Positions 7,130 to 52,266 of a stretch of DNA of 52,266 nt are shown here, piece by piece (within the stretch, counting starts at the first letter, position 1; the number at the start of each line of letters is the position of its first letter). Both the position numbers and the translations under genes were made by a program. Below the pieces are notes generated by a model that was not told the DNA's origin, searched no databases, and saw only the letters and a list, made by a program, of their open reading frames with translations. Origin of the DNA: a virus. The stretch lies in the IMG/VR virus record IMGVR_UViG_3300044993_000544, positions 1-52,266 of that record, one strand, 5' to 3'.

Positions 7130-8881
7130 TTAATTAGTTCCATATTGATCTAAGAAGTCTAGAACTTTTTTAATTTTATCTTCAGATACTTTATCAGAAG
7201 TTTGTACCCAATGTTTGAATTGTGATTTTTCTAAGAATTCTTTATCAACACTATTACCTGATTTTTCAAGTTCTTGAAATAATAGTTTAATCGCATCAAT
7301 CTGTGCCCATTCAAGTGCCCATTTAACAACCATATATCTTCTTTCAGAAATTCTAGCACCATATTTGATAAGAAGCTTCATAATATCAGTTCTACCTAAT
7401 TTAGCAGCATTTCTTAATGGAAGACCTTTTTCAAAGTTTGGATCAATTCCTGCTTTTAATACATACTCAACTGCGTCATAATCATTGATAATATTGAGGA
7501 AAACATCATTATTGATTTCAGAACCATAGTCAACTAGTAACTTAATCATATCAAGGTTTTTGGCATATTTAATTGAATTACCAATATTTGGTGAGGCACC
7601 TTTTTCCAATAAAAGTTTAGCCTTATCATAATCATCTTCTTTAACCGCATTATTTAAAGGCTTACCTTGTTGAGCATTTGGATCAGCACCTTCTTCAAGA
7701 TAATGTTTAATTTTATCAATAGAAAGACCAGGTTTAACAATTTCTTTATTTGCAGCAATTCTTTTCTTTTTGGCTTCAATTTCGTCTGGTGTCATTGCAG
7801 CTAATAATTCTAATATATTAACATTTATATTATAATTATTCTGCCATTGTTTTAGGATAGTTTTAATTGAACCGGATATATTTCTATCATCTTTAGCATG
7901 ACATGCAGTGATTTTATTTCCAGGTCCAATTGTAATACCAATAACTGAATAGTTATCAGATGGTGGTAAATTAAAATTGTAAATATAATATTGCTTGTTA
8001 TATATATTATCAGCACCGACGTAATTATCCCACTGACTATGAGAAGAAGCAATACAATGTGCTGTATTAGAGTTTAATTCTCTGTTAGCAAAAAAAGATT
8101 TAACCTCAATAATCAAAATTCTATTCTCATCAAAAATGATTTCAACACCATTCATCTGGCCATATTTAACATTAACTTTTTGAATAGCTTGTAAGAATTT
8201 AGAAATTTGAGCATTATTTGCGGCCTTAATATAATTATTTGCAGCTATAATTAAGTCGGATATATTTTTATATCTTTTAACTTTTAAGAAAAATAAATCC
8301 TGTAATTCTTTATTTTTTTCCCAATTTTTAGTACCGTCTAGTTCTTTACCAAATTCATCAAATGCTATTGCAATACCTTTAATTTTTTCTTTTTGAACAA
8401 CTGAAGCATTTTGGTATTCGCGTTTTAAATCACTTGGTAATTGATTTACCCATTTCTTAACAGTACGAGAAATCTCAATTTTAGCAATATCATCAAGTAA
8501 TCTTTCAAAACCTTTACGTGGATCTTCATTCGATGGTTTTACATCAGCAAACTTATCAATGGGCATTGATAATAAATTAAGAGATTGTCTTAATTCTTTA
8601 AGCTTGTTATAGACTCTTTGCAACTCATTAATATCAATTCCCTCATCAAAGAAAAACCTTGTGAAAGCATAGGTGTATCCTGGGTTATCTTTCAGCATTT
8701 CTTTTATTTTTAAGAAATCTGGATTGTTTTCTACTCTACGTACTTCTTCAGGAGTTAGCTCTGCATTTTTATCTATATTTTTCTTTTTGGCCAAAGCTAA
8801 ATCTCTCAAGTAAGCCTTTGCTGCTTGAACATTCTCATTTAATCTTATATCTAAGAAATCATTATATTTTATGATTAACAT
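7130..8881 (-). CDS. Ankyrin-repeat protein with N-terminal phage domain, possible virion cargo
   Basis: 583 residues. The N-terminal ~380 residues are an unrecognised, mostly helical region with a segment NTAHCIASSHSQWDNYV that resembles small Cys/Trp-containing domains seen in other phage proteins. The C-terminal ~190 residues contain about five ankyrin-like repeats (YLEEGADPNAQQGKPLNNAV, LLLEKGASPNIGN, LLIKYGARISERR), normally used for protein binding. The first residues, MLIIKYNDFLDIRLNENV, weakly match the shared N-terminal tag of this phage and contain an LxE site. It follows the 494-residue gene with an 8-base gap, so they probably form one transcript. Ankyrin repeats suggest a host-directed binding role; that is inference. 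Confidence 0.75.
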   Translation of the reverse strand: MLIIKYNDFLDIRLNENVQAAKAYLRDLALAKKKNIDKNAELTPEEVRRVENNPDFLKIKEMLKDNPGYTYAFTRFFFDEGIDINELQRVYNKLKELRQSLNLLSMPIDKFADVKPSNEDPRKGFERLLDDIAKIEISRTVKKWVNQLPSDLKREYQNASVVQKEKIKGIAIAFDEFGKELDGTKNWEKNKELQDLFFLKVKRYKNISDLIIAANNYIKAANNAQISKFLQAIQKVNVKYGQMNGVEIIFDENRILIIEVKSFFANRELNSNTAHCIASSHSQWDNYVGADNIYNKQYYIYNFNLPPSDNYSVIGITIGPGNKITACHAKDDRNISGSIKTILKQWQNNYNINVNILELLAAMTPDEIEAKKKRIAANKEIVKPGLSIDKIKHYLEEGADPNAQQGKPLNNAVKEDDYDKAKLLLEKGASPNIGNSIKYAKNLDMIKLLVDYGSEINNDVFLNIINDYDAVEYVLKAGIDPNFEKGLPLRNAAKLGRTDIMKLLIKYGARISERRYMVVKWALEWAQIDAIKLLFQELEKSGNSVDKEFLEKSQFKHWVQTSDKVSEDKIKKVLDFLDQYGTN

Positions 8882-8889
8882 ATACCTAT

Positions 8890-10374
8890 TTATTTTTTTT
8901 TTAATTTATTATGAGGTATATAACCTTCATTTAATTTTTTTAATTCTGATAGGTAAATTTTAGCACCTTCTTTTAAATATTGAGAAAGTATTTTTACTTT
9001 ATCCATATCACCTGCATCTAAAGCGTCATCAATTAACTCTTGAATTTGTTTTTGTGACATTTCTGAATAATCTTTTTTCTGATTCGAATTTTGAGGAATT
9101 TCGATCTCTGGTTCTTCAATATCAATAACTTGACTCAGTTCATATTGGTTTAATTTTTTATTTACCTCATCTATCATTTCATCGATTTTTTTACGAGCCT
9201 CTTGTGTGCCATTCAATATACCTCTAAATAGTTTTAAAAATTCTTCATCTGAGATATAATTTGAATCCATTAACATCCCAAATATAAATGCTCTCATATT
9301 TGGATGAGTTGCTTTTGGATTAGCATTAATGAAATCTCTAAAATCAGCAGCAATTTCTGGACCTGTTCTAAAATCTTCTGCTTCATCCATAAAAGAACTT
9401 ACGTTTAATTCAACAGTTTGTGCTTTTTTAATTTCATCCTCTGAAGCATTTTTACTTGGAAATTGAACTGAAGCGATTAATTCGTAAATACCTTTAACAG
9501 TTTCATGAATCAACATAGGGAAATCTATGCCTCTTGCTCTAATTCGAGGCTGCATCAATTCAAACTCGTCTTGTAATTTTTCTATATCTTTTTCTTCAGG
9601 CTCTATTTCATTTGCTAAATCATTCAATATTTTTGTAGCGAAATCTTTATTTTCATCCTCCTTAGATTGGTCTTCTTTAGGTTTCCAATCTATCGAAACA
9701 GCTCCTGCCATTCCATCAGGGACACGTTCCATCATTTCGGCTTTATTATCAATTGGAATAATCCAATCCATTTTATCAGCCAAATTACTTATTTCTTTCC
9801 ATATATTTAATAATTGTTCAGCTTTATCTCCAAAAATTTTAATCAAGCCATTTTTAACTTCTTCGGTTGCGATAATATGTTTTGTGTTTTTAGCTTCACC
9901 TTGAATAATATTATTTCCTATTTTTGCTTTGTGAATTTTATTGATGGTATCCGGATCTTTAATCTGTCTCATAACCGGATAATTTTTGTTATTTTCAACT
10001 TCTTGTTGTTCTTTTTGTTCTTTACTAACATTTTTCATAAATTTAGCAATTTGTTGACCAGAACCAAAAAGTTTTATATCTAATTCAACACCATCTAAGA
10101 TTTCTCCATAGTTTTTAAGTATGATTTCTTTTGCTAATTTCTCTAACTCTTTTTCATGACCACGAGTCATTCTTTGTGATAGAGATAATAATTGCATAAT
10201 TCTTCCACCAAACTGCATAGGATTTTCTCTTCCTGAAATGCCCAATCTAGCTTTTGCTCTAGACTCAATGTCTCTTAAATAGTCTTTATCACCAGGTTTT
10301 TTTCCATTTTCACCTGGTATAGCAGGATTACCTTTTATTGTTACTTCTTCTAAAAATTTTTGGAAGCTTTTCAT
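8890..10374 (-). CDS. Tagged putative virion protein of unknown function
   Basis: 494 residues. It begins MKSFQKFLEEVTIKG, very close in form to T4 capsid-targeting sequences (MKTYQEFIAE), including an LEE site like those cut by T4-type prohead protease. Then comes a Pro/Gly segment (NPAIPGENGKKPGDKDYL), a helical region with SRAKARLGIS and LSQRMTRGHEKELEKLAKEI, acidic linkers and a Lys-rich C-terminus. Similar proteins occur in other large T4-like phages as far as I recall, without known function. The gene lies between a small Pro-rich tagged gene upstream (10-base gap) and the ankyrin gene downstream: an operon of probable head-packaged proteins. Confidence 0.75.
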   Translation of the reverse strand: MKSFQKFLEEVTIKGNPAIPGENGKKPGDKDYLRDIESRAKARLGISGRENPMQFGGRIMQLLSLSQRMTRGHEKELEKLAKEIILKNYGEILDGVELDIKLFGSGQQIAKFMKNVSKEQKEQQEVENNKNYPVMRQIKDPDTINKIHKAKIGNNIIQGEAKNTKHIIATEEVKNGLIKIFGDKAEQLLNIWKEISNLADKMDWIIPIDNKAEMMERVPDGMAGAVSIDWKPKEDQSKEDENKDFATKILNDLANEIEPEEKDIEKLQDEFELMQPRIRARGIDFPMLIHETVKGIYELIASVQFPSKNASEDEIKKAQTVELNVSSFMDEAEDFRTGPEIAADFRDFINANPKATHPNMRAFIFGMLMDSNYISDEEFLKLFRGILNGTQEARKKIDEMIDEVNKKLNQYELSQVIDIEEPEIEIPQNSNQKKDYSEMSQKQIQELIDDALDAGDMDKVKILSQYLKEGAKIYLSELKKLNEGYIPHNKLKKK

Positions 10375-10384
10375 TACATAATGA

Positions 10385-10642
10385 TTATTTTTTTTGATTT
10401 GTCAATTTTGCAAATTTTTGAATTACATCATCAACCGTAGCGGTTGGTAACTCATTTTCTTTTTTAGCTTTTGGGGCTGGTACTACGGCTGGTTTATCTC
10501 TTCTAATAGGCGAAGGCTTGTTTGGTTTTTGTGAAGGTTTAGTACTTGGTCTTGTTGGTGTCTCGATAGGTTTTGTACCTGGTGATGGTTGAGTATCACC
10601 ACCGCTATAAATAAACTCTTCAAACTTTTTAATTGGTTTCAT
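10385..10642 (-). CDS. Small tagged Pro-rich protein
   Basis: 85 residues. N-terminus MKPIKKFEEFIYS matches the phage-wide tag. Residues 16-65 are a low-complexity Pro/Thr/Lys/Ser segment (TKPIETPTRPSTKPSQKPNK) likely to be extended, and the C-terminal 20 residues form a short amphipathic helix (ATVDDVIQKFAKLTNQ). It is the first gene of a minus-strand run with the 494-residue and ankyrin genes. A TTAATATATA box lies about 25 bases upstream. Not recognised; possibly a small internal head protein. Confidence 0.65.
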   Translation of the reverse strand: MKPIKKFEEFIYSGGDTQPSPGTKPIETPTRPSTKPSQKPNKPSPIRRDKPAVVPAPKAKKENELPTATVDDVIQKFAKLTNQKK

Positions 10643-11731: not shown

Positions 11732-11759
11732 AAAAAAGAGGACTTTTAGTCCTCTTTTT
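11732..11759. terminator. Bidirectional terminator after clpP
   Basis: AAAAAGAGGAC-TTTTA-GTCCTCTTTTT hairpin flanked by A and T runs; it overlaps the last codons of the convergent minus-strand metallopeptidase gene. Confidence 0.85.
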
Positions 11760-12789
11760 GTTTATTTGAATATTGTTTAATAATTTTTCTTACTATTTTA
11801 CCACCAGCCTCTCTGATTTTTTTACCCCAGTAATTCATAAATTGACTATCTGACATTTTTTCGAAGAATTCTGGTCTTGGACTATTTTTATCTTTTTGTA
11901 ATTTATATAATTTTTTATATTCTTTTTTCCAAATATTTATATATTGTGAAAGCACTTCTGATTCAATTAAAGTAGGATCATGAATTAATACTTCCTCATG
12001 AAATTTCTGTAAAAACTTTTGTTCATCGTAATTCTGCATAGCCTTAATATTTTTCCAAAAGTTTGTTTTTTTAAGTTCTTTAAAACTTAATTTATCAACA
12101 TATGGCTTAGCTTCTTGAATTTGAGCATTTACTTCATGAGGTTCAGATTGATAAATATAATAAGTAAAATTATCTTGCCAGAAAATATATACTTTTTCAT
12201 TCACATTTTTTGGTATATCACCAATAGACGCCCAAGTTACACTTGTTTCAATTTCTCTACCATATGGATCCCAACTTCTATTATAATGTTCATAGAAGTG
12301 ATTTAATTCATGTAAAATTACAGCTTCGAGTTTTATCTGAAAACTATTATCAGTATCCAACTCTAAGTCAAGATTACCAACATATACTTCTATACCCATA
12401 GAAATAGATATTGAATGATCTTTATTTTTTTTTACACCTTTTTTAAAATAAGAATAACCTTTTTTCTTTTTTCCAAATCTTACGGCCCAACCACCTATTT
12501 TGAAAGGATATGTATCCGATTTAACTTCCTTCTTTAATAAAAGTGTGAGATTGATCCTTGAAACTGGGAAGTAAGCATAGATTGATTTTTTTGGAAGATA
12601 TGGTTTTAAATCGTTGTAATTGAAAATATATTCTTCAGTTGATTCTGCTGATTCTTTATCTTCATTTTCTTTTTGAAACTCAATTGATTCTTTTGTGATA
12701 AATTGACATAGAAAATCAGATAGGTAAAGCGTAGCTTCAGCAACACCCCTAACTTCCTCAAACATATAGAAATTTTTTAAATAATTCAT
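11746..12789 (-). CDS. Tagged putative zinc metallopeptidase (HELNH)
   Basis: 347 residues. Residues 160-164 read HELNH within LEAVILHELNHFYEHYN, the HExxH zinc-binding helix of gluzincin/metzincin-like peptidases. A further glutamate ligand may come from the following helix region (GREIETSVTW). The N-terminus MNYLKNFYMFEEV matches the phage tag, so the enzyme may be packaged in the head. The C-terminal 80 residues are Lys-rich and helical. Its own AT box lies 2-5 bases upstream of the ATG, divergent to the next gene's box. The peptidase family could not be assigned; the substrate is unknown. The motif is clear, catalytic activity is inferred. Confidence 0.7.
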   Translation of the reverse strand: MNYLKNFYMFEEVRGVAEATLYLSDFLCQFITKESIEFQKENEDKESAESTEEYIFNYNDLKPYLPKKSIYAYFPVSRINLTLLLKKEVKSDTYPFKIGGWAVRFGKKKKGYSYFKKGVKKNKDHSISISMGIEVYVGNLDLELDTDNSFQIKLEAVILHELNHFYEHYNRSWDPYGREIETSVTWASIGDIPKNVNEKVYIFWQDNFTYYIYQSEPHEVNAQIQEAKPYVDKLSFKELKKTNFWKNIKAMQNYDEQKFLQKFHEEVLIHDPTLIESEVLSQYINIWKKEYKKLYKLQKDKNSPRPEFFEKMSDSQFMNYWGKKIREAGGKIVRKIIKQYSNKQKED

Positions 12790-12791
12790 TG

Positions 12792-12837: not shown

Positions 12838-13227
12838 ATGAAACTATTCTCAAAATTAGTTGAATCTAATAAATTTGATTCTCTTTATAAAATTCGAGCT
12901 GATATTGAATTGAATTTAAAGGCTAAGAATCAAGGCGAGGCTTCTTATTTAGCTGACTCGATATTAGCAGCTGTTAAGAATCAATCCGGATATACTATAA
13001 ATTCGGTTGAGAAAATGTCTGAAATGAAAATTCAAGAATCTTTAGACTTAGATCTAGATAATCTACCAAATGATTTAACACCCGAGGATAAAATTAAAAC
13101 TGCATGGAATAATACTTTTGCAGATAAAACACCAAATAAAACTGAAAAAATGGAATTTTATCATCAACTTAGAAATGCTGGATTTGATGGTATGGTTATT
13201 TTCAATGCATTAAAAGGAAAAATATAA
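12838..13227 (+). CDS. Small tagged protein of unknown function
   Basis: 129 residues, not recognised. N-terminus MKLFSKLVESNKF follows the tag pattern with an LVE site. The rest is helical: an N-terminal half with YKIRADIELNLKAKNQGEASYLADSI and a C-terminal half with TPEDKIKTAWNNTFADKTPNKTEKMEFYHQL. The gene is nine bases upstream of a ferritin-like gene on the same strand, sharing its promoter box. Confidence 0.7.
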   Translation: MKLFSKLVESNKFDSLYKIRADIELNLKAKNQGEASYLADSILAAVKNQSGYTINSVEKMSEMKIQESLDLDLDNLPNDLTPEDKIKTAWNNTFADKTPNKTEKMEFYHQLRNAGFDGMVIFNALKGKI

Positions 13228-13853: not shown

Positions 13854-14171
13854 TTAGTATAAGAAGTTACGACCTTTATCTTTATAGTCTTTAAGATTAG
13901 TAACAACCGTATCAATCGAAGAAATTATTTGATCAAAATTTGATTTCACTATATCTAAATTAATTACAGAATCATCGATCTGGTCATTGTAATTTTTTGA
14001 TTTAGATTGGTAGTTTGATAATTCATTAGAAAATGATTCAATTCTTTCTCTTGATGCGTCTAAATTAGTTGAAATATTAGTCAATTCTGATATTATCTCT
14101 TCAATTCTTTCCAGAGAAATTTCAATTTTTTCATCGAGTGCTTCTTGGAATCTTTTAATTTTCATTATCAT
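13854..14171 (-). CDS. Small coiled-coil protein, tagged
   Basis: 105 residues, almost entirely heptad-like helix (ERIEEIISELTNISTNLDAS, RIESFSNELSNYQSKSKN). The better start is probably the second Met (14165), giving MKIKRFQEALDEKIE, which fits the tag and contains an LDE site. It is divergent from the next plus-strand gene and shares the AT-rich spacer with it. The function is not recognised; a structural or scaffold-like head component is possible. Confidence 0.6.
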   Translation of the reverse strand: MIMKIKRFQEALDEKIEISLERIEEIISELTNISTNLDASRERIESFSNELSNYQSKSKNYNDQIDDSVINLDIVKSNFDQIISSIDTVVTNLKDYKDKGRNFLY

Positions 14172-18706: not shown

Positions 18707-19384
18707 TTATTCAATGATTAAAGTCAAAATATAATCGTTTACATCAGTTTCCGGATCATATAATCTACTGTTATGTCTGTTATTATCTGACATGACATCG
18801 ACTATTTTATACAACTGAGAAAGGCGATTAACAATTTTATCACTTAAATCTTCTAAAAACAACAAGTTGTAAGACTCTCGACTTTGATAGGCTCTATTGA
18901 AATGGATGCTTATGGCTGGTCTTTTATTTTCTAAATAATAATCTATTGTGAATTCTGGTTTAGAATATTTTCTAGTCTTTGTGTGGAATAGTAAATCTGA
19001 AAAAACATATGATAGTTCGGTTAGTAAATATTTTGGGTCATTTAATTTTTCTGGATATATACTAAGCCAGCTTTCACCGCCTGAGTATTTCATATATAAT
19101 GAAAACATCAAATATGGATCCCAATGAATAATTTGATCAAAGAATTCTACCAATCTATCTTCGATTTCTTCGATATTATATTTTGAAAAAGTATCAAATT
19201 TATTTTGAAGCCATTTAGATGTGATGTCATAAAGATCCGGATATTCGAAATACCTATTAATAAAATCTTTTTGATTTTGATTTAATTCTTTACCATCCTT
19301 TAAAATATCTAAATATTTATTTATTATGTAACGTTCTTCTGGTTCTTGTTTCCAAATTTCATTAAATTTATTTAGATGCTTCAT
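18707..19384 (-). CDS. Tagged protein of unknown function
   Basis: 225 residues, N-terminus MKHLNKFNEIWKQE with the full tag pattern. The rest is helical and acidic with many Tyr and Trp, no motif recognised. The gene has its own AT-rich promoter region (repeated ATATATAT upstream) and is divergent from the gp4-like gene. By analogy with the other tagged genes it may be a packaged head protein. Confidence 0.65.
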   Translation of the reverse strand: MKHLNKFNEIWKQEPEERYIINKYLDILKDGKELNQNQKDFINRYFEYPDLYDITSKWLQNKFDTFSKYNIEEIEDRLVEFFDQIIHWDPYLMFSLYMKYSGGESWLSIYPEKLNDPKYLLTELSYVFSDLLFHTKTRKYSKPEFTIDYYLENKRPAISIHFNRAYQSRESYNLLFLEDLSDKIVNRLSQLYKIVDVMSDNNRHNSRLYDPETDVNDYILTLIIE

Positions 19385-33057: not shown

Positions 33058-33106
33058 AAAGGAATTATTATTTTTCAATATATATCTAAAATTCTCGTTT
33101 ATAATC

Positions 33107-36509: not shown

Positions 36510-39191
36510 ATGAAGTATTTAAAAAATAGAAAAGAATTTTTAACAGATTTTATAAAATACAAAGAATTCTACAACTATAAATCACAAGACTTAGAGTCTT
36601 CCGCATTAGTTAAAGAAGTCTTAGAAAATGATATAACTTGGGGTGGTTCTTTGTTAGGTAGATTAATAAATTCAACTATTCGCAAAGTCATTATTGGTAC
36701 TAAAATACTTAGAATAAATCCATTATTAAAAAAGCTAAAATATCAACTCGAGTCTTTAGAAGTAGATTATTTAAATAAAGAAAAAGAAATATTTCGAAAA
36801 GCGATTATTTATGCTTTATTTGAGAATATTAAAAAGGCCGCTATGAAGCCTGAGCCACTTGATTTGTTTCTGAAAAATGGTGGCTTAATTGATCAATTAG
36901 TTAATGAATTAGATGAAATAAATGAGTTCCCAGAAAAAGAAGCATTAAAAAACCAAATTGAACAATTTAGAAAAGACTTAGAAGAACTTAGAGAAAGTGG
37001 AAATGTTGAAATTGAAAGAGAAGATGATGATGAAGATATAGAAAATGAAGACTTAGAAGTTGATGAACCAAAAGAAAAATTCAAGACTTCAGTGGTTCAA
37101 ATTTTTAAGTCCGTTATTTCATTACATAATTTATTAAACAAAAATCTTAATAAACCAACCGAACAAAAAGAGACCACACCAGAAAAGAATAAATTTAAGA
37201 TTGGTGGTATTTACACATACACAAATAAAAATGGAGAAAAGAAAAAAGCAAAATTAATTTCATTTACCAATCAAGTCGGTATTGGTAATGATAAACAATT
37301 TATTACAAAAGATGATGTTAAGAAAGGAAAGCTTGGTAATCCAAATAGTGTATTTGTGGAATTGTTAGACGATTCTGGTAAATCGTTGCCAAATAATCCG
37401 ACTATGGAAGTTGACATCAAAAATCTTTCAATTGATAGCTCTTCAAGCGGTACAGGTGATGTTAAAAAAACAAAAATATTTAATAAAAACGAAAAATTTA
37501 TATTTGAGTCAATTGAAGATACAAAAGCGAAGATCGCTTATAATAATTTAGTAAAATATTATAAATCATCTAATATTTCTAATTATGTAAAAATGATTCA
37601 AGATATGATTGACGGTTCAAAAACAGAACAAAAAACCGGCATTGAATGGGCGGGCATAATTTGGCCAACAGAAGGTACTGTAAATTCAAAAATAATCTAT
37701 ATTGGTAAACAATTAATAAATAATCTTAAAACTAATGGTAAACCACTTGAATCAAGTGAATTGGTTGTTGAAGCCGTTAAATTTAGTGATGTGGCCAAAT
37801 CCATTTCTTTGTTTTGTAAACCCATTTTAGGTTTCAAAAATTCACCGGAATTAATAAAAATGATGGAAGGTCTAAGCGAAGACATCCAATCTATCATAGA
37901 TTCTTTCGACTCAATGCAAGAAACATTACCAAGAATTTCTGAAGAAAAACCAAAGAAAGAAAAATTCTTATCATCATATAAAGAATTCATGAGAATAAAT
38001 GAATCAGATAGTGATAAAAAAGGAGATAAAAATCCTGTTTTTGAAGTATATAGAAAAAATTTTTCCAAAGAAGATGAGTCAATCTGGATTGCTTCAAAAG
38101 AAGAAAAATATAGCATGAATTCTAAATTCAAGAATATAAAGATAAACATCGATACTACTCAAAATGTAGATCCGATAATAAAGATAGTCGATATTTTTGG
38201 AGACGCTTATAATATTTTTGTCACACCACAAATACCGTCCGGTCGTCCAAATGGTCGAGTTTCACAGAAAACTTGGAGAGAATATAAATACTTAGGTAAA
38301 GGCACCGGAGATTGGCAACCAGATAGAGCCCCGAATGGCCCATTTGCAATAAAGGTTGTTCTTGATAAATGGAAGAAGGGAGTTATGACAATTTTACAAA
38401 ATCCCTCTCTTCGTAAAATATTCGCCAATCCTAACTTATCTATAAATGGTAATCCAGGTGCAGGTCAAGTACTATTTAATTTTATTAATGATATGTTAGA
38501 TGATGACGCTTTGAAGGATTATGATGCCGCTAGAAGAAAATTATTAACAAAATATTTTAACATTGCTGAAGATAAAGCTAACATAAAACCAGCTCAGGCT
38601 ACAATGGAAGGTAAAGAAGTTCCTAAAGATGAAGTAGTAGTGAATCAAACTGTATTATCAGAGCTTAGACCATTTAGTATATCTAAATCGGAATTTGATA
38701 AACACTCATATTTGATACTGAATTATGATGAAGATGGTAAAAAGCATACAATGGTAATGTATATCATGGGTACCTTTGTTGATAATAATAATAAAAAAAT
38801 AGTAGCTTTCAAATATCAGATTGGTTATAAAGATCTTTTTAAATATTTATTATCTAAGAAATTTAAATCTCCAGAACAAGATCTTATAGATAAACTTGGT
38901 GAAAATGGTAAAATTAATATAGGATTCTTTGAAGGTGAATCTTTAAGAGGAACCTTTAATATGAAGACTCAAGAGCTAAATGAATTTATTAATAAAGTAG
39001 AGCTCAAAGATAAAGAGATTAAGATAGTTAAAGGATTCATATTAAATATTCCAAAGGATAAAAATAATAAGTATGTTATGGAGATTGTTAAAATAGAACC
39101 AGGTAAAGATATTATCACCGACAAAATGAGACCTAAGTATGATAAGTCTATTGGACTTAGTGATATAAAAGAAAAGTATAACAAAAAATAA
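36510..39191 (+). CDS. Large tagged putative internal virion protein
   Basis: 893 residues. N-terminus MKYLKNRKEFLTDFIKYKEF has a tag-like start. Features in order: helical region, acidic segment around 165-190 (EREDDDEDIENEDLEVDEPK), a KGGIYTYTNKNGEKKKAKLI-type beta module near 230, a second tag-like stretch FLSSYKEFMRINESDSD near 487-503, and a mixed alpha/beta C-terminal half. The internal tag-like stretch raises the idea of proteolytic processing into parts. No enzyme family recognised. The stop codon overlaps the ATG of the next tagged gene by one base (TAATG), so translation is coupled. Confidence 0.72.
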   Translation: MKYLKNRKEFLTDFIKYKEFYNYKSQDLESSALVKEVLENDITWGGSLLGRLINSTIRKVIIGTKILRINPLLKKLKYQLESLEVDYLNKEKEIFRKAIIYALFENIKKAAMKPEPLDLFLKNGGLIDQLVNELDEINEFPEKEALKNQIEQFRKDLEELRESGNVEIEREDDDEDIENEDLEVDEPKEKFKTSVVQIFKSVISLHNLLNKNLNKPTEQKETTPEKNKFKIGGIYTYTNKNGEKKKAKLISFTNQVGIGNDKQFITKDDVKKGKLGNPNSVFVELLDDSGKSLPNNPTMEVDIKNLSIDSSSSGTGDVKKTKIFNKNEKFIFESIEDTKAKIAYNNLVKYYKSSNISNYVKMIQDMIDGSKTEQKTGIEWAGIIWPTEGTVNSKIIYIGKQLINNLKTNGKPLESSELVVEAVKFSDVAKSISLFCKPILGFKNSPELIKMMEGLSEDIQSIIDSFDSMQETLPRISEEKPKKEKFLSSYKEFMRINESDSDKKGDKNPVFEVYRKNFSKEDESIWIASKEEKYSMNSKFKNIKINIDTTQNVDPIIKIVDIFGDAYNIFVTPQIPSGRPNGRVSQKTWREYKYLGKGTGDWQPDRAPNGPFAIKVVLDKWKKGVMTILQNPSLRKIFANPNLSINGNPGAGQVLFNFINDMLDDDALKDYDAARRKLLTKYFNIAEDKANIKPAQATMEGKEVPKDEVVVNQTVLSELRPFSISKSEFDKHSYLILNYDEDGKKHTMVMYIMGTFVDNNNKKIVAFKYQIGYKDLFKYLLSKKFKSPEQDLIDKLGENGKINIGFFEGESLRGTFNMKTQELNEFINKVELKDKEIKIVKGFILNIPKDKNNKYVMEIVKIEPGKDIITDKMRPKYDKSIGLSDIKEKYNKK

Positions 39192-39760
39192 TGAAACATT
39201 TATCTAATTATAATAAATTTATTTCTGAGAAATATCAGTTAGACGCAAATGATGATCCTGAGATTGCCTCTCAAAAGAAATCTTTTAATGATTTAGAAGA
39301 AAACATCACTGAGTATAATCTTAAAAAAGTAAATTTAGATAATATCTATAAGACTTATACTGATGATAAAGATTTAATTAATAAGTTAAAAGATCAGAAA
39401 CTAATTGAGGTAGATAATAGTAATACAAAAACTATTAAATTTACAAATCCTCTACTAGCCATACATGCTCAGATATCACGAAAAATGAGAAAAATAATGG
39501 ATATTGAGAAGTTAATTAAAACAGATCAACAAACAATAACGAATAAAAAAGATGCTTCAAAAGGGAACAAGGATCTGATGGATAATTTGAAACAAGAAAT
39601 TAAAGAAATTGAAGAAAAAATAGCATCTAAGAAAACCGAAATCCAAAAACTTAATTCTGAAATCATTATCTTGAAAAAACAGATCGACTCGGAAATAGCT
39701 AAAATAAAGAAACAACTTATTGACTCTCAACGAAGAATCAATAAAGAACAATCAACATAA
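39191..39760 (+). CDS. Tagged coiled-coil protein
   Basis: 189 residues. N-terminus MKHLSNYNKFISEKYQLD has the tag with an ISE site. The C-terminal ~90 residues are a long Lys/Glu coiled coil (LKQEIKEIEEKIASKKTEIQ). Starts one base inside the stop codon of the 893-residue gene, so the two products are probably made together and may interact. Followed by a hairpin terminator and then the sheath gene. Confidence 0.7.
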   Translation: MKHLSNYNKFISEKYQLDANDDPEIASQKKSFNDLEENITEYNLKKVNLDNIYKTYTDDKDLINKLKDQKLIEVDNSNTKTIKFTNPLLAIHAQISRKMRKIMDIEKLIKTDQQTITNKKDASKGNKDLMDNLKQEIKEIEEKIASKKTEIQKLNSEIIILKKQIDSEIAKIKKQLIDSQRRINKEQST

Positions 39761-39829: not shown

Positions 39830-42800
39830 ATGGCAATTCAAATTGGAAAATACAAGAGACCAGGTATCTTTATAGAGGAGTTTGATAATTCAGTAATTAC
39901 CAGTCCTACTGTACAAGGTGTCACATCAATGATATTGGGTTTTTCAAAAAAAGGTCCAGTAAACACACCGGTACTTTTACAAAACATAAATGATTTAGAA
40001 TCCATCTTCGGTTCTATTGATAGAAACCTTGAGAGAAAAGGCAGCTTCTTCCATAGAACTATAAGTAAAATGCTTGAATCAACTCCAGTCTATGCGATCA
40101 ACTTGTTGTTAACTGATGATACTTTAGATAAAATTGAATATCGATCTCTTTCATCGGCTACTGATAAATCTAACGATGTTGAACAACTGGGCGCTTATAG
40201 AAGATTTTTTGATACTACCGGTTTTTGGAAAAGAGATACTGAGTCATTTATTGATATTACTAAATCAAATGTAGGCTATAATAACAGAGTTTTAAATTTT
40301 ACAAATTTATCAGATCGATATATTACCATATTCATATTCAAAACTAGAATGAAAGGTTTCGATAGAAGTTTAATTGAATGGTACGGTTCTGTTGAAAAAA
40401 TGCCAAATTATGTAAATCAAACTGATTGGGCTTCTGATTATATGGTAGATGTTATAGTTGTTGGTGGTGATTGGTCAAATTATCAAGAATTGTCAATTGA
40501 TCCAAGATGGTCTCAATATTTCTCACCTAAGGGTTTGAAAAAAGATCAAATTTATAACTTTACTAATGATAGAAATGTAACATTATTATCTTTCTACGAA
40601 GGCTTATCTTTAATTCCTTATTTCAGAGATACTAACGGTAGAAATATTTTTATTGAAACAGTAATTAACCAAGACACCGACAGAACAGGTCTATTCTGTG
40701 CTTTCAATACTGATTTGTTTGAAACAGAATATACTAACGGACTAGTTGATTTAATTGGTAATAATTTAGTAGGCAGTACTGCTTCATCGATCAACTTCTT
40801 ATCTTATAACGATGTTATTATGGAGACCGTATCATTCACAAATACATACCTTGATAGACCAGGTAATGTTGCGGCTATTGACAGCACCTCCATTGGTGTA
40901 AGAGGTGGGTTTGTAAACAATGGTTCTAGAACTGGCTGGTTTGCTGAAGGATTTGTAGCCGGTGTTAAATTCGATTCTTTATCTTTTACTGCCTCTGCAA
41001 TTAACTTCACATATAGTGTTAGTAATGTTGTTGGTGGCCCGATTGTAGGCTCTACTTCTTCTTATGCTATTATAGGTGGTAATAGAGTTAACGTTACTGG
41101 TACAGCTTCATTTGAATTGGTTCCATCTAATTACCCAAACAACGGAACATTTAGTTCAGTTATTGTGTTAGACTCAACAGGTAATATTACTAAAATTGAT
41201 AATACTATCAATTCAACGAATCCTTCAGTCACACCGACTGATATTGTGTTGGGCTACTTAACAGTTGGTGTGAGTAGTGGATCATTTGTGACTTACTCAT
41301 TTAACCATGTAACTGTTAATAGTTCTGGTTATAAAGAGTTAACTTTTGGTACAGGAAGTAATGACTACTTTATTTCAAATGTTGGTACATCTGGTAATGT
41401 TTCATTGAAGTTCGAATTTAATGACACCGCTTCTACTCCAAGTACTTCAAATTATCATAGATACAGAAGAATTAAATTATTCAACTATTTGATTACACTA
41501 TTAAATTCAAGTAATAAAGATAAAATGGCTATGGTTTATAACTTCTCGACTTTTGAGAAGGTTTCACTTGAAGGTATGCCAATAACAAATATCGTAACTT
41601 CAACAAATGCTAATAAATCGTTTATCATTCAAAACACCGGATTGAGTGTTACGCAATTACAAGATGTTTTAAATGGTAACTTTGTTTTATACAGAATCGA
41701 TGATGAGTTCATTTTGGGTGAAGAAACCATTACTACTAGAAACTCTGCTTTCAATCCTAGTTCCCCAGCAGATGGTGTTGTTGCAAAATACTCACAGTTC
41801 TATATAAGATACAACGACGGTATTATCAACACGGGTGATTACTTCTATTCAAACTATCTTTCAGAAAAAATTAACGAAGTTGAATTTATCAATTCAAATG
41901 GCATGAATTATGTTAGATTCTATGCACCAATTGTTACTTCAAGTTGGCCAATAAATCCAATAGCAATGTTCGGTGATTCATTTATTGTTCCAAATTCAGT
42001 TTTAAACAACGGCATGATCGTAATTTCAAATTCCACACCTGCTACCGCAAGTGGTGGTGAATATTGGTTTGAAGTTGCTCAGAACTTAAATAACGAAGTT
42101 TTACAAAATGTTTCAGTAATATGGAATTGTTCAAAGAAGCACTATTTACAAATGTACTTTGATAGCTCAAATATTTTAAATGTTGCCTTCATGAACTCTA
42201 CACTAAGTGCACCCGAAACAATTGATAATTTGAGCTCAAATACTACAATAGATATACACTCAAATAGAGCCAATTACAAACAAACTATCGAAATTGAAGT
42301 TCCATTGGGATATACTCAAGCACCTAATAAGATTTTAGTTAATGCTGCAAGATATAGTGAGATTAAAGTAGGTGACTTCTTAGAAGCCTACGTAGATACT
42401 ACAACATTAGTACCTGGTCAGGTTCCTAAGAAACTTACTAGAATTTTAAGTAAAAAAATATATGCTGCTGATACATCATTGGTAGAAATTATCTGTGATG
42501 CTAGAATTAATAAGTTATCATACGGTCCAAGTGGTGATCTACAAACTACAAGATATACTTCAATTGAAGATTATATTACTGCATATAAAGCTATTTCTCT
42601 TAAAGGATTTAGAATCAGAGAAGCCTCAATGCCTGATGGTACAGAAGAAAGACAAAACGCTATATTAAATCTTGTTGGTAAAGGTACTCCTTTATTCAGA
42701 GCTATCACAAACAAAGAAGCTTTAGACTTCAGATACTTAGTAGACTCATTTGGTTTAGGCTTAACTGAAAGATCAAAACAACAACTTGTTGATATATGCG

Positions 42801-43624
42801 GTGAAAGGCTTGATGTTTTTGGATTCATAAATATGCCTTCTATGAAGTCATTCAAGAATTCGTCTTCTCCAAGTTTCTTAAAAAATGGCGTATTGAGTAT
42901 TGAGTTTGTTTCAAAAGGTGGTGATCCTGAAAGCAACCCCGCTTTCTTGTACTCATTCGGTGAAGGTAGGGGTACAACAACTGTAGGTTACTTTACTCCT
43001 TACTTAACTGTAAATGATGGTGGTAGACCAACAGATGTCCCACCAGCAATGTTTGTAGCAACTACTTACATGAGAAAACAAATTACCAATGTAACAAATA
43101 TTGTTCCCTGGACAATTGCAGCGGGTACTACAAATGGTAGAATCACTGGTATATCTGGAATTGAAATGGATTTCACACCCCAAGATATTGAGTGGTTAAA
43201 CCAAGCTCAGATGAATCCTATAGTATTCAAGAAAAATCGTGGATATATAATTGAAACTGAGAACACTGCCCAAAGACTCTATAAATCAGCATTATCTTAT
43301 ATTCACGTAAGAGAAGTATTAATTGAACTTGAAAGAGAACTTTCAAGAATGTTGTTAGACTTCCAATGGAAATTTAACACCCCTGAGATTAGATCTGAGA
43401 TTAAATTGAGAGCTGATATTATTTGCGAACAGTATGTAAACAGACAAGGTTTATACAATTACTTCAACAAGTGTGATGAAGAAAATAACACACCTGAAAT
43501 AATTGATAACCAAATTGGTGTTCTTGATACTTATGTAGAACCAATCAAGGGTATGGGAGTTATAGTAAATAACGTTAAAATCCTTAGAACAGGTGCTATT
43601 CAATCAGGTGGATTTATTTCTTAA
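39830..43624 (+). CDS. 18: Tail sheath protein, T4 gp18-like, very long
   Basis: Contractile sheath subunit of 1264 residues, about twice T4 gp18 (659). N-terminal hallmark: GKYKRPGIFIEEFDNSVITS, VQGVTSMILGFSKKGPVNTP and FGSIDRNLERKGSFFHRTIS. The C-terminal sheath domain, starting near residue 990, shows NKEALDFRYLVDSFGLGL, TGISGIEMDFTPQDIEWLNQ and the terminal YIHVREVLIELERELSRMLL. The extra ~600 residues (about 300-900) are Asn/Ser/Thr/Gly-rich beta domains, likely decorating the outside of the sheath. It is alone between two terminators. The fold ends are clear; the role of the insertion is unknown. Confidence 0.92.
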   Translation: MAIQIGKYKRPGIFIEEFDNSVITSPTVQGVTSMILGFSKKGPVNTPVLLQNINDLESIFGSIDRNLERKGSFFHRTISKMLESTPVYAINLLLTDDTLDKIEYRSLSSATDKSNDVEQLGAYRRFFDTTGFWKRDTESFIDITKSNVGYNNRVLNFTNLSDRYITIFIFKTRMKGFDRSLIEWYGSVEKMPNYVNQTDWASDYMVDVIVVGGDWSNYQELSIDPRWSQYFSPKGLKKDQIYNFTNDRNVTLLSFYEGLSLIPYFRDTNGRNIFIETVINQDTDRTGLFCAFNTDLFETEYTNGLVDLIGNNLVGSTASSINFLSYNDVIMETVSFTNTYLDRPGNVAAIDSTSIGVRGGFVNNGSRTGWFAEGFVAGVKFDSLSFTASAINFTYSVSNVVGGPIVGSTSSYAIIGGNRVNVTGTASFELVPSNYPNNGTFSSVIVLDSTGNITKIDNTINSTNPSVTPTDIVLGYLTVGVSSGSFVTYSFNHVTVNSSGYKELTFGTGSNDYFISNVGTSGNVSLKFEFNDTASTPSTSNYHRYRRIKLFNYLITLLNSSNKDKMAMVYNFSTFEKVSLEGMPITNIVTSTNANKSFIIQNTGLSVTQLQDVLNGNFVLYRIDDEFILGEETITTRNSAFNPSSPADGVVAKYSQFYIRYNDGIINTGDYFYSNYLSEKINEVEFINSNGMNYVRFYAPIVTSSWPINPIAMFGDSFIVPNSVLNNGMIVISNSTPATASGGEYWFEVAQNLNNEVLQNVSVIWNCSKKHYLQMYFDSSNILNVAFMNSTLSAPETIDNLSSNTTIDIHSNRANYKQTIEIEVPLGYTQAPNKILVNAARYSEIKVGDFLEAYVDTTTLVPGQVPKKLTRILSKKIYAADTSLVEIICDARINKLSYGPSGDLQTTRYTSIEDYITAYKAISLKGFRIREASMPDGTEERQNAILNLVGKGTPLFRAITNKEALDFRYLVDSFGLGLTERSKQQLVDICGERLDVFGFINMPSMKSFKNSSSPSFLKNGVLSIEFVSKGGDPESNPAFLYSFGEGRGTTTVGYFTPYLTVNDGGRPTDVPPAMFVATTYMRKQITNVTNIVPWTIAAGTTNGRITGISGIEMDFTPQDIEWLNQAQMNPIVFKKNRGYIIETENTAQRLYKSALSYIHVREVLIELERELSRMLLDFQWKFNTPEIRSEIKLRADIICEQYVNRQGLYNYFNKCDEENNTPEIIDNQIGVLDTYVEPIKGMGVIVNNVKILRTGAIQSGGFIS

Positions 43625-45693: not shown

Positions 45694-45912
45694 TTAAATT
45701 CGATCTTTTATTTTAACATTACGTAATGCTTTGACCAAACGATGTTGTACATCTAGTATAGATATTGGTTTACCTGCTTTTGAATCTATTACAATTGGAT
45801 AGTTTTTATAATCAGCAGCTTCAACTCTCACAGGATCTTTTTTTGTATCAATTAATAAATATTTAATTTGATTTGGATCAATTTCAATAAAATTATCTAC
45901 ATGTTTCATCAC
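45694..45912 (-). CDS. Small tagged protein of unknown function
   Basis: 72 residues (71 if the second ATG at 45909 is used). Starts MKHVDNFIEIDPNQIKYL, a weak tag match, followed by a compact alpha/beta part (YPIVIDSKAGKPISILDVQH). 45913-46111 between it and the divergent gp47-like gene is AT-rich and shows no gene. Confidence 0.55.
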   Translation of the reverse strand: MMKHVDNFIEIDPNQIKYLLIDTKKDPVRVEAADYKNYPIVIDSKAGKPISILDVQHRLVKALRNVKIKDRI

Positions 45913-48338: not shown

Positions 48339-48899
48339 TTATTTCTTTTTCTTATACCTTGATTTAGCAGCTTTGGCTTTAGCCCATAAATCAGCATCGG
48401 CTTTTCTAGCACCACCAACACCAGTTATGAATGAGTTTACACGACCCATTCCCCACTGATGTTGAGCCACACCTGGTCTATGACCAGCATTCCAAGCTTG
48501 CATTCCTTTATTGAATACTTTTCTTAAAATTTTCATAGGTATTCCAGATGCTTTAGATTTCTTTTTAAGTGAAGTAGTTATATTAGATTTTTTAGATTCA
48601 TTCATTGAATTTTTATATTCATTATATAATTTATTAAATTCTTCATCTGACATATCCTTGTAAATTTTACGATTTTTTAAAATTGCTGCCCAACCAAAAT
48701 TAGTCATATCTTTTGGGTCTATTCCAAATTCTTGTATAAAATCATTTACTGTTAGTTTAGAATCATGAGGCATATTCCTTAATTTATACTCTAATTCAAT
48801 CGTTAAATCAATTTTTGAGTCTTCGTCAAATTCATTATATTCATCACCGGCAACAACGTCTTCGTGTTTAAAGTTTTCAAATAATTTTAAGTATTTCAT
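48339..48899 (-). CDS. Tagged protein with DUF5824-like C-terminus
   Basis: 186 residues. N-terminus MKYLKLFENFKHEDVV has the tag. Residues ~110-180 (KKKSKASGIPMKILRKVFNK, GMQAWNAGHRPGVAQHQWGM, GRVNSFITGVGGARKADADL) match a conserved phage and virus domain I know as DUF5824, function unknown, with a basic end ideal for DNA contact. Its start overlaps the stop of the upstream 250-residue gene (ATGA), so the two are coupled. Confidence 0.72.
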   Translation of the reverse strand: MKYLKLFENFKHEDVVAGDEYNEFDEDSKIDLTIELEYKLRNMPHDSKLTVNDFIQEFGIDPKDMTNFGWAAILKNRKIYKDMSDEEFNKLYNEYKNSMNESKKSNITTSLKKKSKASGIPMKILRKVFNKGMQAWNAGHRPGVAQHQWGMGRVNSFITGVGGARKADADLWAKAKAAKSRYKKKK

Positions 48900-49648: not shown

Positions 49649-49685
49649 ATTTTATATGGAATTTTATTTGTTTAGATTTTTTTAT

Positions 49686-49698
49686 GTATATATTAAAA
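49686..49698 (-). promoter_or_regulatory. AT promoter box for the DUF4314-like operon
   Basis: Minus strand TTTTAATATATAC, 37 bases before the start at 49648; it overlaps the end of the upstream minus-strand ORF. Confidence 0.5.
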
Positions 49699-49950: not shown

Positions 49951-49962
49951 TTTACCCTTTAT

Positions 49963-50374: not shown

Positions 50375-50381
50375 TATATAC
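50370..50381 (+). promoter_or_regulatory. AT promoter box for repeat gene 1
   Basis: TTTAATATATAC, overlapping the stop codon of the decayed copy. The same box and following ATAAATTTAATATG region recur before the second copy at 51359. Confidence 0.5.
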
Positions 50382-50403
50382 TATAAATTTAATATGTATC
50401 CTA

Positions 50404-51363
50404 ATGAAATACCTACTAGAATCCTCCATATTTAACCAAATTGACCAGATTTGTAAGGAATTTGGTATAAAAAACTATACTGTAAATGGGGATGGATCTA
50501 TCGATGTAGATGGTGATGTAAATTTAACCAATAAGGGATTATCAGAATTACCCCTTAAGTTCGGTATAGTAAGTGGTGATTTCCGCTGCTATGGTAACCA
50601 ATTAACTTCACTAGAATGTTCACCGAGAAAAGTCGGTGGTGATTTCAACTGTGGTAGCAATCAATTGATTTCACTGGAAGGAGCTCCGGAGGAAGTCGGT
50701 GATGGCTTTTTTTGTAGTAATAATCAATTAACTTCGCTGGAGGGGGCTCCGAAAGAAGTTGGTGGTAGTTTCTACTGTGATGATAATCAATTAACATCAT
50801 TAAGGGGAGCTCCAAGACAAGTAGGTGGTAATTTCTACTGTAATAATAATCAATTAACTACACTGGAGGGAGCTCCTAGAGAAGTAGGTGGTGTTTTCTA
50901 TTGTTGTTATAATCGATTAACTTCATTGAGGGGAGCTCCAGAGGTAGTCGGTAGTAGTTTCCACTGTGGTTATAATCAATTAACTTCACTGGAGGGAGGT
51001 CCGATAGAAGTGGGTGGTCATTTCTACTGTCATAATAATAAATTAACTTCATTGAGAGGGGCTCCGGAGGAAGTCAGTGGTGGCTTCTACTGCTATAATA
51101 ACCAATTAACTTCATTGAGGGGTGCTCCGAGAGAAGTGGGTGGTAATTTCCACTGTTATGATAATAAATTAACTTCACTAGAGGGAGCTCCGAGAGAAGT
51201 TGGTGGTAACTTCTACTGCTATGATAATCCACTTCCTCAACTAATTTTTGATAATTTGACTATGATTAAACACATCATTAAAAATCAAGAAGATTATTCA
51301 ATCTGGAGAAGCGACGGAACCCTAGATGAGTTTAGATTTAGGGAAATGATGCGGGATATTTAA
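50404..51363 (+). CDS. Cys-containing leucine-rich-like repeat protein, copy 1
   Basis: 319 residues. N-terminus MKYLLESSIFNQI (tag-like with LLE), then a short domain with VNGDGSIDVDGDVNLTNKGL. Residues 57-266 are ten tandem 21-residue repeats of the form GG(N/S)FYCxxNQLTSLxGAPxEV, each with one Cys at the same place, giving a Cys ladder and a likely beta-solenoid. A partial eleventh repeat leads to a C-terminal cap DNLTMIKHIIKNQEDYSIWR and a DEFRFREMMRDI end. Repeats like these are known in large phages and Bacteroidota, role unknown; binding of a host surface or of host proteins is a guess. Confidence 0.8.
   Translation: MKYLLESSIFNQIDQICKEFGIKNYTVNGDGSIDVDGDVNLTNKGLSELPLKFGIVSGDFRCYGNQLTSLECSPRKVGGDFNCGSNQLISLEGAPEEVGDGFFCSNNQLTSLEGAPKEVGGSFYCDDNQLTSLRGAPRQVGGNFYCNNNQLTTLEGAPREVGGVFYCCYNRLTSLRGAPEVVGSSFHCGYNQLTSLEGGPIEVGGHFYCHNNKLTSLRGAPEEVSGGFYCYNNQLTSLRGAPREVGGNFHCYDNKLTSLEGAPREVGGNFYCYDNPLPQLIFDNLTMIKHIIKNQEDYSIWRSDGTLDEFRFREMMRDI
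50572..51201 (+). repeat. Ten tandem 63-base coding repeats, copy 1
   Basis: Each 63-base unit codes one 21-residue repeat; conserved DNA words such as CAATTAACTTCA and GGAGCTCC recur in register. Differences are concentrated in the two codons after the Cys and in the LxGAP segment. Confidence 0.85.
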
Positions 51364-51370
51364 TATATAC
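51359..51370 (+). promoter_or_regulatory. AT promoter box for repeat gene 2
   Basis: TTTAATATATAC followed by TCTAAATTTAATATG, nearly identical to the region before copy 1. Confidence 0.5.
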
Positions 51371-51388
51371 TCTAAATTTAATATGTAA

Positions 51389-52266
51389 ATGAAATATTTA
51401 CTAGAATCCTCTAAATTTAACAAAATTCATCAGATTTGCCAGCAATATGGTATAGAAAAATATACTCTAAATGTGGATGGATCTATTGATGTAGATGGTG
51501 ATGTAAATTTAACTGATAGGGAATTATTAGAATTACCGTTGGAGTTCTGTATAGTAAGTGGTGGATTCTATTGTAGTCATAACAAATTGACCACACTAAA
51601 AGGAGCTCCTAAAAAAGTAGGTGGTAATTTCTATTGTTATTGTAACCAATTAATTTCATTAGAAGGATCTCCGGAAGAAGTGGGTGGTGATTTCTACTGT
51701 AGTAATAACAAATTAACTTCACTGCAGGGAGCTCCAAAAGAAGTGGGTGGTGGTTTCTCTTGTATTAGTAATCAATTATTTTCATTAAAGGGATCACCAA
51801 GAGAAGTCGGTACCGATTTCTACTGTTATGATAATCAATTAACTTCACTGGAAGGAGACCCAAGAGAAGTAGGTGGTAATTTCCACTGTAGTAGTAATCA
51901 ATTAACTTCACTAGAGGGAGCTCCGAGAGAAGTGGGTGACAATTTCCACTGCAGTAATAATCAACTAACTTCATTGCGGGGAGCTCCGAAAGAAATCGGT
52001 GTTAGTTTTTACTGTGATAATAATCAGCTAACTTCATTGGAGGGTGCTCCGAGAGAAATCGGTGGTAGTTTTTACTGTAATAATAATCAACTAACTTCAT
52101 TAGAGGGAGCTCCAATAGAAGTCACTTATGACTTCTATTGTAATGATAATCAATTAACTTCATTAAAGGGTGCTCCGAGAGAAGTTGGTGGTGACTTCTA
52201 CTGCTATGGTAATCCACTTCCTGAACTAATTTTTGATAATTTGACTATGATTAAACACATCATTAA
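51389..52266 (+). CDS. Cys-containing leucine-rich-like repeat protein, copy 2 (cut by window end)
   Basis: 292 codons open to the window end, no stop reached. N-terminus MKYLLESSKFNKIHQIC and VDGSIDVDGDVNLTDRELLE parallel copy 1, then again ten 21-residue repeats (residues 57-266) with one Cys each (NQLTSLEGAPREVGGNFHC type), and the start of the same C-terminal cap (LIFDNLTMIKHII). The N- and C-terminal parts are more alike between copies than individual repeats, as expected for tandem duplicates that recombine. About 27 residues are missing beyond the window, judging by copy 1. Confidence 0.82.
   Translation, partial: MKYLLESSKFNKIHQICQQYGIEKYTLNVDGSIDVDGDVNLTDRELLELPLEFCIVSGGFYCSHNKLTTLKGAPKKVGGNFYCYCNQLISLEGSPEEVGGDFYCSNNKLTSLQGAPKEVGGGFSCISNQLFSLKGSPREVGTDFYCYDNQLTSLEGDPREVGGNFHCSSNQLTSLEGAPREVGDNFHCSNNQLTSLRGAPKEIGVSFYCDNNQLTSLEGAPREIGGSFYCNNNQLTSLEGAPIEVTYDFYCNDNQLTSLKGAPREVGGDFYCYGNPLPELIFDNLTMIKHII
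51557..52186 (+). repeat. Ten tandem 63-base coding repeats, copy 2
   Basis: Same unit length and number as in copy 1, with different variable codons, so the arrays have kept length but diverged unit by unit. Confidence 0.85.

Follow-up and report, generated by a model that had tools for sequence, protein, structure and literature searches.

Why should proteins with unrelated bodies open with nearly the same few residues? The question is raised by a stretch of viral DNA of 52,266 nucleotides (nt) (IMG/VR record IMGVR_UViG_3300044993_000544, positions 1 to 52,266; hereafter, the window), in which an earlier note had seen a short N-terminal peptide, here called the tag, at the starts of at least 15 unrelated proteins, and had proposed that the phage uses it to load a varied cargo into its head. 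This interpretation is supported by a comparison of the window with related genomes, and we consider it likely that the tag belongs to a diverged and greatly expanded propeptide system of the kind that addresses T4 internal proteins to the capsid, the T4-type capsid-targeting sequence (CTS).

The window is a 52-kb fragment from a huge T4-type myophage, whose relatives were found through its terminase large subunit. This protein is 64% identical to the terminases of LR745206 (634,780 bp; W01) and LR756502 (642,428 bp; W02) and 43% identical to that of LR756504 (636 kb). The window is extended by G009, a contig of 86 kb that carries the same tagged genes and whose terminase is 100% identical. 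Al-Shayeb et al. assign those of their genomes that are larger than 634 kb to the Mahaphage clade, with Bacteroidetes as predicted hosts (PMC7162821). W01, W02 and a 464-kb IMG/VR contig (G003) were compared whole with the window, and since these phages are akin the counts from the four are not independent. Genes were called with our own simple hexamer caller, in such a way that starts were picked blind to the tag. Two main tag patterns, both of which admit false positives and miss variants, were used: one opening M(K/N)(H/Y/F/S/N/K/T), with 93, 120, 44 and 10 genes in W01, W02, G003 and the window, and a narrower one opening M(K/N)(H/Y/F/S), with 85, 102, 35 and 10.

The core of the tag, MK(H/Y)(L/I/V)xx(F/Y), opens 8 of the 55 called genes of the window versus none of 265 internal methionines (Fisher P ~5e-7), and the same control gives 79/943 gene starts versus 4/3290 internal methionines in W01, 93/958 versus 4/3464 in W02 and 29/524 versus 1/2280 in G003, so the enrichment that the earlier note had proposed to look for is very strong in the window and in its relatives. 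For two looser patterns with an early glutamate, the number of genes above the internal-methionine rate is 97 or 136 (W01), 121 or 144 (W02) and 39 or 57 (G003), whereas with aspartate in place of glutamate the excess is only 22, 26 and 10, respectively. These looser forms suggest 100-140 tagged proteins per genome in W01 and W02. Chance resemblance due to AT-rich composition was ruled out by the internal-methionine controls and by the rarity of the core pattern in the genes of other phages.

The shared peptide is therefore real and far wider than claimed, but the form in which it had been printed, MK(H/Y)(L/I)xxFxxF, is exact in only three of the 19 gene starts named in the earlier note (27681, 30900 and 48899), and the first list, counted there as at least 15, holds 14. 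All 19 starts are present and each opens a long reading frame, with a GTG start for the gene at 27681 and a frame still open at the window end for that at 51389. The core pattern matches eight of them, and a loose M-x(1-3)-hydrophobic-xx-(F/Y/W/L) matches 15. Many had been said to carry L/I-x-E, and this holds for 10/19 within residues 1-19, or 17/19 if any hydrophobic-x-E is accepted.

The bodies behind the tag are mostly unrelated, as had been claimed. After removal of the first 18 residues, the 231 tagged proteins of the four genomes make up 184 groups by BLAST, of which 156 are singletons and the largest has seven members. Pfam recognizes two families (one protein each) among 84 tagged W01 proteins and six among 97 of W02 (the rest of the 85 and 102 cross tile borders), and 39 among 85 length-matched untagged W01 proteins from which loose tag matches had been removed beforehand; for PHROGs the W01 figures are 10 families versus 62 in the untagged control. 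Few of the tagged proteins in the window are named by Pfam or PHROGs. Where a fold or family can be named, the tag stands before an isochorismatase-like fold, a NUDIX protein, an M15 peptidase and an HNH protein. At the DNA level, several synonymous codons are used at tag positions 2 to 12, and tagged genes resemble one another more than random genes do only over the first 30 nt (pairwise similarity 0.77 and 0.51 in the first two 15-nt bins of W01, versus 0.48 and 0.34), the upstream bins being within ~0.01 of the random set and the later ones within a few hundredths. Since synonymous codons change, most bodies are unrelated and the flanking DNA does not rise above background, it is the peptide on which selection acts.

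Tagged genes also turn over fast: reciprocal best partners between W01 and W02 exist for 21/85 tagged versus 402/858 untagged proteins, and between W01 and G003 for 5/85 versus 193/858, with proteins shorter than 60 residues left out of the search yet kept in the denominators. Among 29 W01-W02 pairs with the tag on at least one side, the strict tag is on both in 17, and several of the other 12 keep, as judged by eye, a variant like MRYLKPYKKFIEN. Some tagged genes stand in runs, with 25 adjacent pairs versus 7.5 expected in W01, 38 versus 10.8 in W02 and 13 versus 2.3 in G003. Dense stretches are found at 10-63 kb of W02, with runs of up to nine, and at 440-460 kb of W01, and they look like hotspots of cargo turnover.

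The consensus reads MK-(H/Y)-(L/I)-K-x-(F/Y), followed mostly by (N/E)-E-S or K-(I/L)-F-E-S. Candidate cleavage sites of the form hydrophobic-x-E-(S/N/A/G) are concentrated just behind it, in such a way that residues 6-18 of tagged proteins hold one in 50/81 (W01), 63/99 (W02) and 17/35 (G003), versus 4/81, 7/99 and 2/35 for residues 19-31 and 82/762, 86/764 and 48/445 for residues 6-18 of untagged proteins. The window, with ten tags, is too small a sample to judge (3/10 in residues 6-18, 1/10 in 19-31 and 3/10 in 32-44). The T4-type form (F/Y/W)xx(F/Y)(I/L/V/T)xE is likewise concentrated at N-termini: 30/891 in W01, 28/909 in W02 and 16/500 in G003 for residues 1-18, versus 4, 4 and 1 for residues 19-36, and 12/347 versus 1 in 220 kb of LR756504 and 18/212 versus 0 in 200 kb of the 735-kb LR756501. 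No such concentration was seen in the phages PAU (0/281 versus 2) and PTm1 (2/281 versus 2). The family of the window gene starting at 39191 has the T4-type form within its first 24 residues in 26/27 loci and the strict tag in only 3/27.

How the tag behaves within a single family can be followed in a hydrolase (26959..27681) and in its neighbour (27877..28542). For the hydrolase we aligned the window protein with 32 of 57 matching loci, after a length filter and without near-duplicates and the window-identical locus L002, counting two rows with longer called starts from an internal methionine. Position 4 is L/I and position 7 F/Y in 33/33, and position 8 is E and position 10 F/Y in 31/33. Position 2 may be any of seven residues, and because of this the strict pattern, with K or N there, fits only 34/57 loci. 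In the structure model of the window protein, residues 1-46 are disordered (predicted local distance difference test, pLDDT, < 50) and precede a mostly confident domain, weaker at ~91-110. The 50 structures listed by VIA-align (Z 9.4-11.4) align from residues 41-48 and are isochorismatase/nicotinamidase-type hydrolases and their kin; Foldseek gave no match under E 0.001 and members of the superfamily only at E ~0.1, and the two rows returned by a PDB sequence search with the protein were judged to be chance. The tag runs almost straight into the enzyme in 31/33 orthologues; in the two that have long insertions, the first enzyme strand closely follows I-S-E-S (window protein) or I-L-E-S (L004). 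The neighbouring family (the window protein plus 28 of 57 loci, with the same filters and one further row left out) has the strict tag in 43/57 loci and (I/V/A/L)-x-E-(S/A)-V at about residue 22 in 27/29 aligned proteins; its structure model is poor (mean pLDDT 54.7). Cutting by the head protease at these candidate sites would free the folded part.

A gp21-like protease, which the earlier note had proposed to look for, is encoded in the relatives, although neither in the window nor in the 86-kb contig. PF03420, the gp21-type family, was detected in 4/8 relatives' records, one of them over the cut-off, and in 5/5 other records at E <= 1e-5, three over the cut-off, with a second separate match in LR756501. 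A protein query found the S77 protease gene in 13/15 records, the two misses being contigs of 44 and 86 kb near-identical to the window, and also in W01 and W02; in the six records compared it lies ~11-20 kb from the terminase gene. Whereas T4 has a separate gp21 protease and gp22 scaffold, in W01, W02 and G003 both are one protein of ~700 residues, in which the protease is followed by ~10-12 tandem 14-residue repeats centred on YSEY(L/I)AEN and then by acidic and conserved tails. What is shared with gp21/gp22 is the PF03420 domain and, within the scaffold and the capsid protein, candidate sites of the form I/L-x-E. In W01, W02 and G003 the capsid protein keeps an I-N-E-N motif at about residue 42-45, where, by eye, T4 gp23 has LTE-A. 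The repeat core YSEYIAE also resembles, by eye, the T4 tag core YQEFIAE, which we regard as a lead.

Upstream regions were compared for genes with at least 25 nt of their own upstream DNA (104/232 of the tagged genes). The motif AATATATA precedes 87/104 tagged, 17/27 virion, 3/44 replication and 337/1122 other genes (tagged versus replication, P 3e-19), and TAnnTTTG, which we take to be the Bacteroidetes host-type promoter, precedes 2/104, 0/27, 1/44 and 209/1122. The virion set comprised T4 homologues, protease and capsid genes, and two large genes of the W01 structural region added by hand. As AATATATA had been selected for its enrichment before tagged genes, only the contrast of virion with replication genes (P 5e-7) counts as independent. 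The motif also precedes 53/78 genes whose looser tags fall outside the strict set, versus 284/1044. Judged from these upstream regions, tagged genes look late, like virion genes, and carriage in the particle would best account for enzymes that are produced late. By eye, several replication genes of W01, W02 and G003 have AAACTT at some distance ahead of TATATAA, perhaps a third (middle) class of promoter.

The tag had been open to refutation by its occurrence on early proteins such as the helicase or the clamp loader. Homologues of hand-chosen T4 core genes, with helicase, clamp loader, polymerase, terminase, sheath and capsid among them, number 71 in the four genomes, and neither main pattern tags a single one, versus 232/2480 of all genes (P 0.0014). 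Beyond the close relatives, the core consensus was absent from the gene starts of PTm1 (0/306), MA9V-2 (0/263) and T4 (0/254), and found in LR756504 (13/372 and 6/109 in two parts), LR756501 (1/228 in the part covered) and Sphingobacterium phage PAU (JQ362498; 2/291). T4's own signals are missed because they have Thr at position 3: IPII and IPIII start with MKTYQEFIAEA and IPI with MKTFKEFTS. PAU has a variant of its own, MK(T/S/G/N)(L/I)xxL(Y/F/L), on 21/291 genes versus 0/1351 internal methionines, and 14 of the 21 are among the 39 genes at 98-121 kb together with portal, protease and capsid (P 4e-9), a pattern and region chosen after seeing the gene list, with two of the 21 starts looking like chance. 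Tagged gp142 and gp154 are labelled "internal capsid protein" and tagged gp152 "scaffolding" by the depositors of the record, on grounds not stated, and the record notes over 90-139 kb make no mention of a tag. Compared with the huge phages, PAU has a different consensus (MKTLxxLYEA), fewer tagged genes and strong clustering. In MA9V-2, four starts read MK(N/T)F(F/T)xF(I/V)NE, one directly before the protease gene.

The likeness to the CTS of T4 IPI, IPII and IPIII is thus one of a short N-terminal MK-x-(hydrophobic/aromatic 4)-xx-(aromatic 7) on unrelated, non-core proteins, with glutamate sites behind it and a gp21-family protease in the lineage. As in the T4 system, the peptide takes up 10-19 N-terminal residues common to unrelated proteins and is absent from replication and other conserved non-internal proteins. 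In IPIII, mutations place targeting mainly in residues 4 and 7 and processing in residues 8 and 10, according to the available text of PMC9026906; the fixed positions 4 and 7 of the tag are, compared as sequence, those same main targeting residues. The differences are that position 4 is here mostly Leu/Ile and in T4 Tyr/Phe, that the glutamate is here most often followed by Ser, with a site less uniform than L/I-x-E, and the scale: T4 carries three internal proteins, with at least 10 reported over related phages (PMC12373910), versus 35 (G003) to about 100-140 (W01, W02) tagged proteins per genome.

From all this we infer a route in which the protein is made late, recognized by the scaffold, cut, kept in the virion and injected. 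The N-terminal stretch, with its hydrophobic residue 4 and aromatic residue 7, would be recognized by the scaffold core of the forming head, which would bring the protein behind it, expressed late together with the virion genes, into the prohead. Often, cutting by the head protease after the hydrophobic-x-E just behind the tag would then free the cargo inside the head, and this cargo, mostly lineage-specific small proteins and a few enzymes, would probably be delivered into the next host with the DNA.

Several observations weigh against this reading. Tagged genes are scattered over the genome and not clustered with head genes. The cleavage motif is not uniform, residues 6-18 having no site in 31/81 tags of W01, 36/99 of W02, 18/35 of G003 and 7/10 of the window, where residues 32-44 hold as many as residues 6-18; in the hydrolase family no hydrophobic residue is fixed two before E8. 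The proteins of T4 show the T4-type pattern no more often at their N-termini (2/239) than in the control stretches (3 and 1). Among the T4-core homologues of the four genomes, the DnaB-like helicase (31-1371) has one match to this pattern, taken for chance. The PF03420 scan of the window gave no match, and neither did the protease query against the fragment contigs G009 and G010, so that the gene is missing also from the 86-kb extension. The promoter comparison is weakened by the choice of AATATATA for its enrichment, by a broader pattern, mostly TATATA forms, that precedes 96/104 tagged, 23/27 virion, 23/44 replication and 468/1122 other genes, and by the difference between tagged and virion genes for AATATATA itself (P 0.03). 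PTm1 lacks the tag though its terminase is 33% identical, and the accessible open-access literature yielded no virion proteomics for these phages, PAU or MA9V-1: that on PAU's host came without any, and that on MA9V-1 reports only sodium dodecyl sulfate polyacrylamide gel electrophoresis.

Three other explanations were weighed. The shared start could come from common descent, the tagged genes being one duplicated family, as the runs of adjacent tagged genes and the few shared bodies might suggest; the predominance of singleton groups, DNA similarity that stops after ~30 nt and the variety of folds behind the tag make this very unlikely, and a single paralogous family was rejected on the 184 groups among 231 proteins. 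The start could also be a feature of translation or mRNA, an AT-rich opening of strongly expressed late genes. Tagged genes do share an AT-rich upstream motif and A-rich first codons, but the residues hold while synonymous codons vary, T4-homologous virion genes with like upstream regions go without the tag, and a single family varies at position 2 but not at positions 4 and 7; together with DNA similarity limited to the first 30 nt, the codon variation led us to reject a translation-initiation or DNA-level motif, for which we see hardly any chance.

The third explanation, unlikely as well though less so than the other two, does without packaging: late proteins would be gathered by an amphipathic start that docks them to the membrane or to some other structure made by the phage. 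A single hydrophobic face would result from the spacing of positions 4, 7 and 9/10, and the head location of the tagged proteins is itself reasoned from sequence. Docking leaves unexplained, though, why sites are enriched just behind the tag, why (I/L)-x-E-S stands before the enzyme domain in the two hydrolases with long extensions, and why PAU has its tags at portal, protease and capsid genes and on proteins annotated as internal capsid or scaffolding. The capsid-targeting explanation may be carried further, to a general cargo bay in the largest phages, an idea that we rate slightly below even: a degenerate code at the N-terminus would direct the products of 1 in 7 to 10 genes to the head, at least 100 different proteins would be packed and injected, a gene would join by gaining ~10 residues and a late promoter, and the YSEY(L/I)AEN repeats could be sites of cargo docking and serial cutting that dissolve the core.

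The kind of system is already known, since a T4-type signal on diverse internal proteins has been described: the accessible texts present these proteins as highly diverse defence proteins with only the targeting sequence conserved (PMC3012670) and propose the signal as the means by which T4-like phages recruit various proteins into their heads (PMC9026906). Many proteins are also stored in the giant heads of phiKZ and SPN3US, as ejection or inner-body proteins, and some SPN3US head proteins are cut by the prohead protease after A-x-E; there, the propeptides are mostly of 111-254 residues, with two short ones (20 and 24), and no common short tag is mentioned in the part of the text available (PMC10052503). 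What seems new is the occurrence in huge Bacteroidetes phages, the scale of ~100 proteins, the consensus and the fused repeat scaffold, none of which was found in the accessible open-access literature (including PMC7824862, PMC13282480, PMC9391042, PMC9723584 and PMC12363816); a literature search with the peptide letters returned unrelated texts.

Features of the window and its relatives (aa, amino acids; start as read from the called gene)
Feature	Positions	Strand	Start	Remarks
583-aa ankyrin-repeat protein	7130..8881	-	MLIIKYNDFLDI	loose start
494-aa protein	8890..10374	-	MKSFQKFLEE	T4-like form; no Pfam or PHROG match; best-match partners keep tag form (W01_251044 MKNFKDFMNEE, W02_280913 MKNFSKFLEE)
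85-aa Pro/Lys-rich protein	10385..10642	-	MKPIKKFEEF	loose tag; partner W02_280620 starts MKFIKKFEKFLES
347-aa protein	11746..12789	-	MNYLKNFYMFEE	tag; relatives W01_252909 (MKYIKPYSNFSINEA), W02_278433 (MGIINFKNFQLNE)
129-aa protein	12838..13227	+	MKLFSKLVES	loose tag
103-aa protein	13854..14165	-	MKIKRFQEALDE	loose tag
225-aa protein	18707..19384	-	MKHLNKFNE	tag
236-aa protein	24613..25323	+	MKYLKYFES	strict tag in 6/7 matching loci
Isochorismatase/nicotinamidase-like fold	26959..27681	-	MKHLKLFES	tag plus spacer; candidate cut RISE/S (E43/S44) just N-terminal of fold
Conserved protein near terminase	27877..28542	-	MKHIRKFES	second candidate site IIRE/S; Q-rich low-complexity tail
137-aa protein	30487..30900	-	MKHLKDFEKF	tag
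Terminase large subunit	30913..33114	-		untagged; query for relatives
893-aa protein	36510..39191	+	MKYLKNRKEFL	variant start; matches in 58 loci, core pattern in 0/58
189-aa protein preceding sheath gene	39191..39760	+	MKHLSNYNKFISE	tag; orthologues with T4-type form
Tail sheath	39830..43624	+		untagged; among virion genes in promoter comparison
71-aa protein	45694..45909	-	MKHVDNFIE	tag
DUF5824 protein	48339..48899	-	MKYLKLFEN	tag
Leucine-rich-repeat genes	50404..52266	+	MKYLLESS	outside core and loose patterns; second copy, from 51389, open at window end
S77 protease-scaffold fusion	W01 198546-200669; W02 225272; G003 247865

The leucine-rich-repeat genes belong to a tandem array with starts MKYLLESS(K/I)F, of which nine full copies lie at 97-8714 of G009 (locus L142) and two in the window. 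Among neighbouring genes, a TROVE (Ro60-like) protein is encoded at 5553-7097 of the window (matched in a pooled scan of 44 window proteins, the gene being assigned by eye), a ClpP-type protease at 10934-11656, and, from the same pooled scan, glutamine synthetase at 20642-21748, with a similar protein, by eye, at W01 189663-190739, and a ClpS adaptor at 30209-30490. G003 has two tail sheath genes near each other, at 269815 and 274183.

For most genes of huge phages no function is known, and a tag that can be read from the sequence alone would sort about one tenth of them into a single class, head proteins present at time zero of infection. T4 internal proteins block host restriction enzymes (PMC12373910 and PMC3012670, in the text available), so that the tag points at ~100 candidate first-strike proteins for anti-defence or takeover of the host, including an isochorismatase-like enzyme. 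In the isolated phage PAU, the non-DNA contents of giant heads would become directly testable.

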